Shown: piece by piece, positions 12,998 to 45,355 of the stretch
How positions within the stretch are numbered: position 1 is the first letter of the stretch
How the letters are laid out: every line of letters begins with the position of its first letter
Assembly: GCA_937139605.1 (NCBI GenBank)
Contig: CAKZQG010000045.1
Location: 5,455 to 69,454, forward strand
DNA from: an uncultured bacterium
GTDB lineage: Bacteria; DRYD01
Length of the DNA: 64,000 bases
Reading direction: 5' to 3'
Translations under genes and position numbers: made by a program
The notes under the pieces: generated by a model
Seen by the model: only the letters and a program-made list of their open reading frames with translations
The model's database searches: none
What the model was told of the DNA's origin: nothing

Positions 12998-15106
12998 ATG
13001 GGGATAATAGATAAAATAAAATATGATATAAAAAGTATATTAGAACCAACAAGTATAGGAATAATTGGAGTTTCAAGTAATAAAGAACATATAAGTTATT
13101 CATTTTTAGAAAATCTTATCAATTCCAATTATGAAGGGATAATCTATCCTGTTAATCCTAAATTAAAAGCAATTAAAGGATTAAAAGTATATAATGATAT
13201 TAGTGAGATTCCAATAGTAGATTTAGCAGTGGTAATTTTAAAACCAACAATAGCCTTAGAAACAATAGAAAAAGGAGCAATCAAAGGGATAAAAAATTTC
13301 ATTGTACTAAGCAGTGGATTTGCTGAAACTGAAGAAGGTGAAATATATCAAACCAAACTCAAAGAATTAAGTGATAAATACAACCTAACAATATTAGGCC
13401 CCAATTGCGTAGGAGTTATAAATACTTATTATAATTTAAATGCATCGTTTGCTACAAAATATCTACCTAAACAAGGGAACATATCAATAATAGCTCAAAG
13501 TGGAGGATTTACTATAGGAGTAGTTAAATTTCTAACACGAAGAAACTTAGGAATAAGCAAGCTAATAAGTGTAGGAAATAAATCAGTCTTACAAGAAAGC
13601 CATTTCTTAGAATACCTATATGATGACAACACCACTAACGCAATTATATTATACATTGAAGATATAAAAAATATCGATGAATTTCAAGAAATAGTATTAA
13701 AACTAATAGAAATAAACAAACCAATAGTAGTTTTTAAAGGTGGAATAACGCAAGAAGGGCAGATAGCTTCTGCCTCGCATACCGCCGCATTAGCAGGACA
13801 TAACGAAATATTCAATACACTATTAAATAAACTCAATTTAATAAAAGTAGAAAATGTCAAAGATTTATATAATATTACTTTATTGCTTTCTAAGAATTTT
13901 GAATTATTTAAATCAAAAAAATCTAAAAAGGTATTAATAATAACGAATTGTGGGGGTTGTGGGGTAATAACCACAGATTTCGCTGTAAAAAATAATTTAG
14001 AAGTACCTAAAATTTCAGAATCATTTAAAACAGATTTATACAAAGTCCTTCCACCTGCTGCAGGAGTTAATAACCCAATAGATATAGTAGGAGATGCAGA
14101 TGATACTAGATTCGAAAAAACTTTACAAATTATATTGAACCACAAAAATGAATATGACATATTACTATTAGTTCCTGCACAACAATCTACAATAGATATG
14201 AAAAAAGTTAGCGACGTTATAGCAAAAATTGAACCAGAATTTACCAAAAATAACATACCTATAGTATGTTGCATGTATTCATTAGATATATTTTCAAAAG
14301 ATTTTGAAAATATAAATCAAACAAATATCCCAATATACGAGTACCCTGAAGAAGCTACTTTAGCTATATCTAAAATAATAGAATATAACTTAAAAAGAGA
14401 ATTAATATTAAAAAATAAAAACTTACCATTATTAGAATTAGATATTGATTATAATAAAATAAAAGAACTCATTATGGAAAGTGAAAGCGAATATATTCCT
14501 TTAAATAAAAATATAAAAATCTTAGATTTTTTGAAAATAAATCAGCCTAAATATCAAATAATTAATAACGAAAAAGATTTAGAAAATATAGAATTAGAAT
14601 ATCCATTAGTAATGAAATCTTTAGATCCTAAAATAATACATAAAACAGAAAAACAAGCAGTTATTTTAAATATAAAAAATAAAAATGAATTAATAGAAAG
14701 CTATAATAAATTAAAAAGTTTATATCCAATTGCTTTAGTCCAAGAAATGATTGAAAAAGATTTAGAATTAATAATAGGTTATAAAAAAGATAAGATCTTA
14801 AATAAAGGGTTCATATTATTAGGATTAGGAGGAATTTTTACAGAAATCCTTAAAAAATTCGAAACAATTTTAATACCAACTAATAAAGAAGAAATAATAA
14901 ATACTTTAAACAAATTAAATATTCTAAAAATATTTCAAAATTACAGAAATAAAAAATATGACCTTAATTCACTAATAAATACAATATTAAAAATAAATGA
15001 ATTAGTAATAAAAATAGATGAAATAGAAGAAATTGATTTAAACCCTGTTATAGTTAATGAAAAAGGAGTTTTTACAGTAGATATAAGAATAAAAAAACAA
15101 TTATAA
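12998..15106 (+). CDS. ADP-forming acetyl/acyl-CoA synthetase (fused alpha-beta)
   Basis: The 702-residue protein matches the fused ADP-forming acyl-CoA synthetase family, which conserves acetyl-CoA thioester energy as ATP (acyl-CoA + ADP + Pi to acid + CoA + ATP) in fermenters and hyperthermophiles. Domains in order are a CoA-binding Rossmann domain (SIGIIGVSSNKEH, PVNPK, LGPNCVGVIN), succinyl-CoA-ligase-like domains with the phosphorylated-His region ASHTAALAGH, a second ligase domain (NCGGCGVITTDFA), and a C-terminal ATP-grasp domain (VMKSLDPKIIHKTEKQAV, LVQEMIEKDLELIIGY, LGLGGIF, IDLNPVIV). The ATG at 12998 is 24 bases from the nearest AAGGAG site, which instead fits a tiny upstream frame (12978-12995). 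mnmA follows 30 bp downstream. Confidence 0.9.
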   Translation: MGIIDKIKYDIKSILEPTSIGIIGVSSNKEHISYSFLENLINSNYEGIIYPVNPKLKAIKGLKVYNDISEIPIVDLAVVILKPTIALETIEKGAIKGIKNFIVLSSGFAETEEGEIYQTKLKELSDKYNLTILGPNCVGVINTYYNLNASFATKYLPKQGNISIIAQSGGFTIGVVKFLTRRNLGISKLISVGNKSVLQESHFLEYLYDDNTTNAIILYIEDIKNIDEFQEIVLKLIEINKPIVVFKGGITQEGQIASASHTAALAGHNEIFNTLLNKLNLIKVENVKDLYNITLLLSKNFELFKSKKSKKVLIITNCGGCGVITTDFAVKNNLEVPKISESFKTDLYKVLPPAAGVNNPIDIVGDADDTRFEKTLQIILNHKNEYDILLLVPAQQSTIDMKKVSDVIAKIEPEFTKNNIPIVCCMYSLDIFSKDFENINQTNIPIYEYPEEATLAISKIIEYNLKRELILKNKNLPLLELDIDYNKIKELIMESESEYIPLNKNIKILDFLKINQPKYQIINNEKDLENIELEYPLVMKSLDPKIIHKTEKQAVILNIKNKNELIESYNKLKSLYPIALVQEMIEKDLELIIGYKKDKILNKGFILLGLGGIFTEILKKFETILIPTNKEEIINTLNKLNILKIFQNYRNKKYDLNSLINTILKINELVIKIDEIEEIDLNPVIVNEKGVFTVDIRIKKQL

Positions 15107-43368: not shown

Positions 43369-43676
43369 ACTTTTTACCCCCATTTTTATTATTTTTTTAT
43401 TTTTTAAATTATTTTTTTAAAGATATTACTCTTAGTAATTATATTAAACACAATTAAAAATATACCTCTTAATTTTTATAATTAACAACTAATTAATTAC
43501 TTATTACCTAATAATTCATACTCAAAATTACTCAGTTTTTTATTTATTTTATCAAACTCTATTCCTAGTAAATATATTTTTTCATAATTTAAATATTTTT
43601 TAAAGTATTCTTTTTCCTTAATTTGTTTTAACGCTTTCCCTTTTTCTTTTTCATTCTCTAACACCTTAAACTCCAT

Positions 43677-43697
43677 TATAACGAAAGTTATATGAAA
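43677..43697. repeat. Hairpin mini-insertion, copy 5 (21 bp, in frame)
   Basis: Plus-strand sequence is TATAAC, GAAA, GTTATA, TGAAA: a six-base-pair stem closed by a GAAA tetraloop, then a TGAAA tail. In the host gene it adds seven residues (FHITFVI) between KKIVYI and MEFKVLE, splitting an otherwise typical PD-(D/E)XK strand. Confidence 0.85.
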
Positions 43698-44105
43698 TAT
43701 ATAAACTATTTTTTTATCCACTATTATTGTTAAATTTATTCTACCTTTTGATGTATTATCTTCTATTATTACGTTATATCCTGTTGAATATATTAGCCCA
43801 TATATTGCTGCAGAATATATATACTCGTTTTTTAACACTTCATAACTTATTGTATTTATAAATATCTCTATCTGTTTTTTTATTTCTTGTAGATTCCCCT
43901 TTTTAAATGCTAAGCTTATTAATGTTGTCTTATCTACTTGGTAATCTCCTGTTATATAAAATAATATCTCACTGTTAAATGATTTTCTCACTTCTTTATT
44001 CGGATAATCTAATGAATATAGAACCTCTTCATTCTCATATTTATACTCCTCTTTGATGGTTAAATATCCTGTTTGGAACATTAATGCTTCTATGCTTATA
44101 TATTC

Positions 44106-44141
44106 TATAACGAGAGATGTATTCTCGAAGTTATATAATAA
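44106..44141. repeat. Hairpin mini-insertion, copy 4 (36 bp, in frame, diverged)
   Basis: Arms TATAAC and GTTATA enclose an inner CGAGA/TCTCG stem. The tail is TAATAA instead of TGAAA. It inserts 12 codons between FDI and EYISIEALMFQTGYL of the host protein, a place where relatives read straight through. Confidence 0.8.
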
Positions 44142-44341
44142 TATGTCAAACTTTTCTAATATCTCACTTGTGTAGAATTTCTTATGTAAATACGGTAAAT
44201 CAAAGTTTCTTTGTTTTATTATTTTAAATAAAAATTTTGTTCTTCCTGTTTCATACCAATAATTTCTTATCTCCTTCTTCTTTAAATATAATAACACATC
44301 AAATAGATTATATACTTTATTGCCTAAAAAATTATATCCGT

Positions 44342-44375
44342 TATAACGAACGCAGTATGCGTGAGTTATATGAAA
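44342..44375. repeat. Hairpin mini-insertion, copy 3 (34 bp)
   Basis: Arms TATAAC / GTTATA with inner stem ACGCA-GTA-TGCGT and TGAAA tail. It is directly joined to copy 2. Removing both restores the codons for KWYNGYNFLGNKVYNLF in the host gene. Confidence 0.9.
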
Positions 44376-44409
44376 TATAACGAACACAGTATGTGTGAGT
44401 TATATGAAA
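44376..44409. repeat. Hairpin mini-insertion, copy 2 (34 bp)
   Basis: Tandem neighbour of copy 3, identical except that the inner stem reads ACACA-GTA-TGTGT: both sides of one pair changed together (G-C to A-T), so the stem is preserved. Confidence 0.9.
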
Positions 44410-45085
44410 TATACCATTTTCTTACTTCTTCTATATTTACATTATCCAGATACTCCTTAAAATAATGTTCTAATTCTTCTTGGGTATATCCGCATATGTC
44501 GCCATATTCTTTGCTTAATGAAATATCCTCTAACTGATTTAATCCACTAAACAGAGATACTTTTGCAAATTTTGAAACCCCTGTTACTATCACAAACTCT
44601 ATATACCTATCTAACACTTTCAATACTGAATAAAATGCTTTTAACATCTCTCTTATCTCATATACTTCTTCCTTATCTATTAAATCTAATATCGGTTTAT
44701 CATATTCATCTACTAATATCACTACCTGCTTTTTAGTTTTTTCACTTATATGCTCTATTAATAATTTCCAATTTATATATACACTTAAATTCTCTTTTAT
44801 TTCATAATCATATTTCTCTGAATACCTTAATATCACTGAATATATCTGTTCTTCTAATAACTTCTTATTTAACGTCTGGATTTCCCCAAAATCTACCCTA
44901 ATTACCGGATATTTTTCATTCCAATCCCATTTATTTTCTATATACAGTCCTTTAAATAATTCTCCTTGAGCTTCATATAGATACTCAATAGTGGATAAAA
45001 GTAATGATTTTCCAAAGCGTCTAGGCCTACTTAAAAATATATACTTACAACTACTTAATAATTCATATATATACTTTGTTTTATC

Positions 45086-45119
45086 TATAACGAAGGCGTA
45101 AGCCTAATGTTATATGAAA
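45086..45119. repeat. Hairpin mini-insertion, copy 1 (34 bp)
   Basis: Arms TATAAC / GTTATA with inner stem AGGC-GTAA-GCCT and TGAAA tail. It separates NNYVYV from DKTKYIYELL in the host gene and shifts the frame. Confidence 0.9.
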
Positions 45120-45355
45120 TACATATACATAATTATTTGTTATCAATTCTTTAAAATCGCTTATTCCAATTGGTAATTTTTTCATAAAAAACCCCCTCTT
45201 TTAAATGAGCATTTTCTAATTAATATTTAAATTAATCTAAAATATAATCCTGTTTTCTATATTTATATAAATTTTAGAAAAAAATAAAATTAAAGGAAAA
45301 TATAAAAAATAAGAGAAAAAAGAAAATAGAAATAATGGATAAAAGGAATAATAGA

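Follow-up and report, generated by a model that had tools for sequence, protein, structure and literature searches.

The mobile palindromes known from bacteria are scattered throughout the genome. REP elements are palindromes of 20-40 bp tagged by GTAG or CGTC (PMC3733652), and Rickettsia palindromic elements, of about 150 bp, are found in many unrelated genes and encode a conserved peptide (PMC10969869). The GC clusters of yeast mitochondria are short palindromic mobile inserts of an AT-rich genome, with a possible 2-bp target, short co-conversion tracts and a proposed help from a reverse transcriptase (PMC4478555). Short inserts which break the frame of protein genes are described in the mitochondria of Magnusiomyces capitatus (the byps) and in gene 60 of phage T4, where the gap is skipped in translation, matching triplets not being strictly required in the byps of M. 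capitatus (PMC5009743). Finally, the gene family with which we are concerned here, DUF1703, is expanded into many paralogues in Cardinium cCpun, with intragenic recombination reported among them; hairpin inserts are not mentioned in the part of that article drawn on here (PMC6387759).

The inserts described below are 21-36 bp long, with one 54-bp form, in about 37 copies sharing a common fold. They are like REP elements in their size, in their hairpin with a mismatched interior, in the tag carried at one end, in their variable stem, in being sometimes intragenic (as REP elements can be) and in occurring in both orientations (PMC3733652). They differ from them in that the tag is here TTTCA (most copies have TTTCA/TGAAA, some a slight variant of it, none GTAG or CGTC), in that they occupy one gene family instead of being dispersed between genes, and in that the genome shows no RAYT/Y1 transposase. 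The resemblance to Rickettsia palindromic elements, which had been drawn in an earlier note made from this DNA alone, holds for the behaviour (palindromic inserts within protein genes, several of them in frame) but neither for the size, which is 21-54 bp here, nor for the dispersal in unrelated genes, the present inserts being found in a single gene family, in both frames and both orientations. Hence, we do not file the element under either name: it fails on the tag and the transposase of the first and on the dispersal of the second. In its workings it nevertheless comes closest to these two and to the GC clusters of yeast mitochondria. The yeast GC clusters, which the GC-rich hairpins of a related genome (see below) resemble especially, are mitochondrial and spread over a whole organelle genome with no tie to one gene family. 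The byps and the gap of gene 60 are alike in being short frame-breaking inserts, but the additional lesions of the copies studied here and the mismatched triplets at one site (e) speak against a skipping in translation. No description of the element was found in the open-licence papers searched, and the earlier note knew of none.

Inserts of the DUF1703-type gene

The window (the whole stretch of 64,000 nucleotides that was analysed) belongs to a genome of 1.88 Mb in 45 contigs, 88.5% complete, called G000 below. The interrupted gene it contains (Table 1) has both DUF1703 domains, AAA-ATPase_like and PDDEXK_9, as does an intact paralogue in which the Pfam matches have E = 8.6e-68 (PF09820) and 6.8e-17 (PF08011). 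The earlier note had reported five palindromic inserts in this gene, of 21, 36, 34, 34 and 34 bp, and it was right in every detail: two keep the frame, adding 7 and 12 residues, and the other three shift it, all five share the plus-strand arms TATAAC...GTTATA, four of them end in TGAAA, every site has a TA target, and the inner stems vary while remaining paired, as a comparison of c with d makes plain. The 36-mer ends in TATAATAA in the window copy and in TATGATAA in the other copies. The pattern TATAAC-N4..24-GTTATA occurs seven times in the window when 0.58 occurrences are expected, and none of 100 shuffles had at least seven. When the 21-mer and the three 34-mers are excised, one open frame runs across the whole gene; when the 36-mer is excised too, the sequence of the empty paralogues is recovered (...FDIEYISIEA...).

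Table 1. The interrupted gene and its inserts, in positions of the window
Feature	Length	Position	Strand	Remarks
Host gene, interrupted copy, DUF1703-type AAA-ATPase_like (PF09820) and PDDEXK_9 (PF08011)		43497-45185	minus	Pfam matches; single open frame without a, c, d and e
Element a	21 bp	43677-43697	minus	In frame, adds FHITFVI (7 residues); immediately upstream of the E-x-K motif of the nuclease domain; 10 aligned copies identical
Element b	36 bp	44106-44141	minus	In frame, adds 12 residues, LLYNFENTSLVI; 4 copies
Element d	34 bp	44342-44375	minus	Frame-shifting, within the WYNGYN motif; inner stem ACGCA/TGCGT; alone in copy C33, elsewhere in tandem with c
Element c	34 bp	44376-44409	minus	Frame-shifting, in tandem with d; inner stem ACACA/TGTGT, a compensatory change with respect to d; identical in 6 copies
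Element e	34 bp	45086-45119	minus	Frame-shifting, N-terminal YVYV^DKTK motif; inner stem AGGC/GCCT; 7 copies

Distribution and anatomy of the element

What we say of the whole genome rests on pattern searches and on covariance-model searches. The pattern TATAACN{2,30}GTTATATGA has 35 exact matches in G000 (33 of them in the same orientation, 2 in the opposite one), while the reversed control pattern has none. The earlier note had called for such a genome-wide search without foreseeing its outcome, namely that all 35 matches fall inside paralogues of one DUF1703-type gene family, which numbers about 20 gene copies (19 PF09820 and 22 PF08011 matches). A covariance model made from eight element types, with which the best 150 of 1262 first-look candidates were scored, added two sites, i, which is antisense and has the arms TACAAC/GTTGTA (on C4 and C5), and h, an in-frame insert of 54 bp (on C6 and C42); among the candidates scored, and up to E=1, no element of G000 lay outside the DUF1703 family. 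The total is therefore about 37 copies, all within DUF1703 paralogues, numbers which are minima as the contigs break at members of the family. We observed besides that many contigs (C3/C4, C35/C36, C28, C33, C42 and others) break off within a DUF1703 copy, with order and orientation matching, so that they resemble successive parts of one scaffold; nearly every copy with an insert is on the minus strand.

The elements occupy eight or nine homologous positions (a, b, c/d, e, f, h, i), in both orientations relative to the gene, f and i being antisense. When insert-free homologues are aligned, as had been suggested, the paralogues without inserts display the empty sites, for instance at C4:28.9-30.6k, in the three tandem copies on C41, on C28 and on C2. 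The set of inserts is shuffled from one copy to another: C33 carries d but no c, C9 is limited to e and a, and C6 is without a. In a crude model where the family makes up 1.7% of the genome, the probability that eight independent sites all fall in it by chance is about 7e-15; insertion at random does not account for the restriction to one family. An assembly artefact is unlikely, since the elements occur on 10 contigs or more, their flanks differ, and relatives have homologous elements.

Read in its own orientation, the element has the following layout: ATA / TTTCA TATAAC, 2-3 nt, an inner stem of 4-5 bp, a TAC-like loop, the other strand of the inner stem, TC, GTTATA / G; its ends are written as TTTCATATAAC. 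Folded individually as DNA, seven of the elements longer than 21 bp take the same two-stem shape, with a small internal loop between the outer and the inner stem, and element a has the outer stem only, its inner stem being missing. The inner stems vary from type to type and still pair (GAGA/TCTC in b, GGGA/TCCC in the element g of the sister species), and in i the two outer arms have changed together (TACAAC/GTTGTA). A covariation count made on the alignment is weak, as the alignment misplaces the inner stems, which have two lengths, and the argument for pairing rests on the individual folds and on the explicit pairs (b and g, c and d, the arms of i). We saw no relative of the element that was longer.

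All sites have a TA target. Taken in the orientation of the element, the two antisense sites included, the next base is G at six sites out of eight (p=4e-4, post hoc) and the preceding base is A at seven out of eight. A duplication of TA is compatible with every site, and a cut after ATA without any duplication fits equally well: the two are indistinguishable, TATA being the end of the element itself.

Hairpin inserts in related genomes

The strict pattern of G000 has no match in G001, a genome of the same genus (about 32 PF09820 matches, 87% complete), and it is absent from all 39 other genomes searched. G001 carries two copies of a homologous 36-mer, g, at KGLY^IEDKW, a position which is unused in G000, and a decayed element in an HD-domain pseudogene (G001:C100; L405:1140-1930), outside the DUF1703 family. 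This pseudogene, decayed itself, is upstream of the start of a DUF1703 gene found at the end of the contig, a few kb away. That a repeated hairpin element multiplies inside genes, as had been proposed from the window, is borne out by its many copies, by its two orientations, by the filled and empty sites and by this homologous copy elsewhere in the sister species.

G002, a genome of the same family but of another genus, has an insert of its own: a GC-rich hairpin of the TGGGGTAGGGGNCCCC type, usually of 21 bp, which is unrelated to the element of G000. Its core, GGGGNCCCC, occurs at 16 sites in G002 and all 16 are in six DUF1703 copies, with up to five per gene; two of these sites, YYYV^ and SLF^, nearly coincide with sites e and f of G000. 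Of these six copies, four or more have stops or frameshifts outside the inserts, while the full-length insert-free copies are open. With two mismatches allowed, the sole clear place outside DUF1703 is a 21-bp tandem triplet in a glycine-zipper gene (G002:C6:84846-84902; L433:1840-1910). The triplet is related to the GC-rich hairpin and forms a Pro-rich C-terminal tail, which a neighbouring paralogue lacks; it is a possible source of the G002 element, or a possible landing place for it.

Matches to an open pattern, in at least 115 genome stretches and 106 viral stretches, were considered as distant relatives, and those examined turned out to be unrelated conserved sequences, regulatory hairpins or chance. 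On one viral contig, two identical hairpins TATAACGTCTATTTATTAGACGTTATATGAAA stand upstream of small genes (L272:13527-13558 and 13786-13817); they are probably a regulatory look-alike.

Age, spread and fate of the interrupted copies

Elements occupying the same site differ by 0.5% (they are about 99.5% identical), while filled G000 copies differ from one another at about 41% of their silent sites, which is as much as intact copies do. Beyond about 10 bp from the inserts, the flanks of filled copies differ as much as those of empty ones; closer in, there is slightly more similarity, chiefly at e and b. This means that the inserts are young and have spread between paralogues in very short tracts. 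The identity within a site reflects this recent spread and not a constraint, because the inner stems differ freely between sites. We rejected for the same reasons the idea of ancient insertions held by selection: stems free between sites, elements identical within a site, silent sites strongly diverged close by. Identical runs of 40-217 bp between paralogues number 165 when 22 are expected at 40 bp or more, an 8-fold excess approximately, and therefore short-tract conversion is at work in the family, in which intragenic recombination is also reported for Cardinium (PMC6387759).

We think it probable that the inserts form a family of non-autonomous, REP-like, selfish palindromic mini-elements which inactivate the copies they enter. 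A new position would be created by a rare insertion of the hairpin at TA, usually at ATA^G in the orientation of the element and either way round with respect to the gene, and the filled position would then be copied into other paralogues by gene conversion over a very short tract; an insertion templated by single-stranded DNA or by RNA, after ATA, would fit the oriented target. The 34-bp inserts, which break the frame, most likely inactivate the copy, whereas those of 21, 36 and 54 bp stay in frame and may be tolerated. Stops or frameshifts additional to the inserts are present in five of eight filled copies (C4C has a TAA and C5A a TGA, C5B is frameshifted, C4A has lost 1 bp and C9A has a tandem duplication of 14 bp) and in none of six full-length empty G000 copies (p=0.03), with the reservation that some frameshifts of the filled copies could be assembly errors. 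A larger comparison including G001 gives p=1e-4 and is to be discounted, its copies having been selected for their open frames. In the window copy, Asn replaces the conserved Asp of GRIDLT, presumably the catalytic one. An excess of damage at invariant residues of the filled copies is not clear, with about one case per copy in both classes, and the associated P = 0.016 is unreliable as the leave-one-out columns of intact copies include their own deviations. Against inactivation counts the equality of dN/dS (0.125 in filled copies vs 0.117 in intact ones): by that measure the filled copies are not pseudogene-like. We take this signal to reflect recent conversion, and recent spread can explain it without proving it. 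No mobilising enzyme was found: PF01797 (Y1/RAYT), with two matches in G002, is absent from G000, G001, G003 and G005, an absence which is not certain with G000 88.5% complete.

The strongest rival of these selfish mini-elements is a directed mobility, where the inserts would be actively targeted to the DUF1703 family in the manner of a miniature homing drive; for example, the PD-(D/E)XK nuclease of the family would cut the empty sites, or a retron-like reverse transcriptase would copy family transcripts. We hold it to be rather unlikely. It would account for the fact that, in two genera, two unrelated hairpin families keep wholly or nearly to the same gene family, for conversion tracts of about 10 bp or less around the elements and for the oriented ATA^G target. 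Retron-like reverse transcriptases are in fact present in G000 and in G002 (G000:C2, RVT match 63625-64260, L440:1294-2475; G002:C22, L439:1285-2598); they are homologous, they both have YADN instead of YADD and RT_XIII as their best PADLOC model, and that of G000 is about 8 kb from a DUF1703 copy. Such a resident enzyme makes an RNA route possible, and no more than that. Against a directed mobility, nothing links an enzyme directly to the element, G001 has elements but no match to a reverse transcriptase (in a genome 87% complete), one of its elements lies outside the DUF1703 family, and ordinary short-tract conversion also moves inserts between copies. A wider version of the same idea can be put forward, unlikely as it may be: a hairpin system bound to the gene family, in which each genus would have its own hairpin, all of them directed into DUF1703, the nuclease family, alone or with the resident reverse transcriptase, driving a site-faithful copying in tracts of about 10 bp, that is, a minimal homing element of 21-54 bp.

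It is quite improbable that the inserts are removed from the RNA or skipped by the ribosome as byps are, so that interrupted copies would make full proteins. The frame and the protein are otherwise kept, dN/dS in filled copies is that of intact ones, the inserts have the form of hairpins and the take-off and landing triplets match at c/d (TAT/TAT). However, the triplets at e do not match (GTA/ATA), the five filled copies mentioned above have lesions outside the inserts, f and i are antisense, so that the RNA shows the complementary hairpin, and no Rfam family is matched at the inserts. The inserts are also too young for dN/dS to be informative: the signal of purifying selection gives no support to bypassing, because recent spread explains it equally well. 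With the conserved Asp lost in the window copy as well, the byp-like bypassing envisaged in the earlier note is not supported. An import of insert-laden DUF1703 genes from a relative with hairpins all over its genome, followed by mixing through recombination, would explain the confinement without targeting and suits a family which is found on plasmids and spreads horizontally (PMC6387759), but it is still less credible, since no donor appeared in the 39 other genomes, the matches examined in open collection scans were due to chance or to gene families, and the unrelated hairpins of sister genera would call for two independent imports.

Whether selfish mini-elements or a directed system are at work, two unrelated hairpin families residing, in two genera, in one gene family or nearly so mean either that the family attracts or drives them, or that recombining multigene families are traps where inserts persist. 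The data set, natural and unusually clean, bears on the way in which the smallest mobile DNA moves: it offers about 37 copies in two orientations, sites both filled and empty, compensatory changes, and sister genomes. It bears also on DUF1703, a widespread, recombining, nuclease-like family of unknown function.

Finally, DUF1703 genes carried by plasmids, phages and viral contigs were considered; three of the plasmid loci were read in detail, and they showed no hairpin inserts. One unannotated copy, likewise without hairpin inserts, is on the Calditerrivibrio plasmid pCALNI01 (L434:20001-21528), which carries other DUF1703 members; its reading is split in two and it comes directly after a tyrosine recombinase gene.
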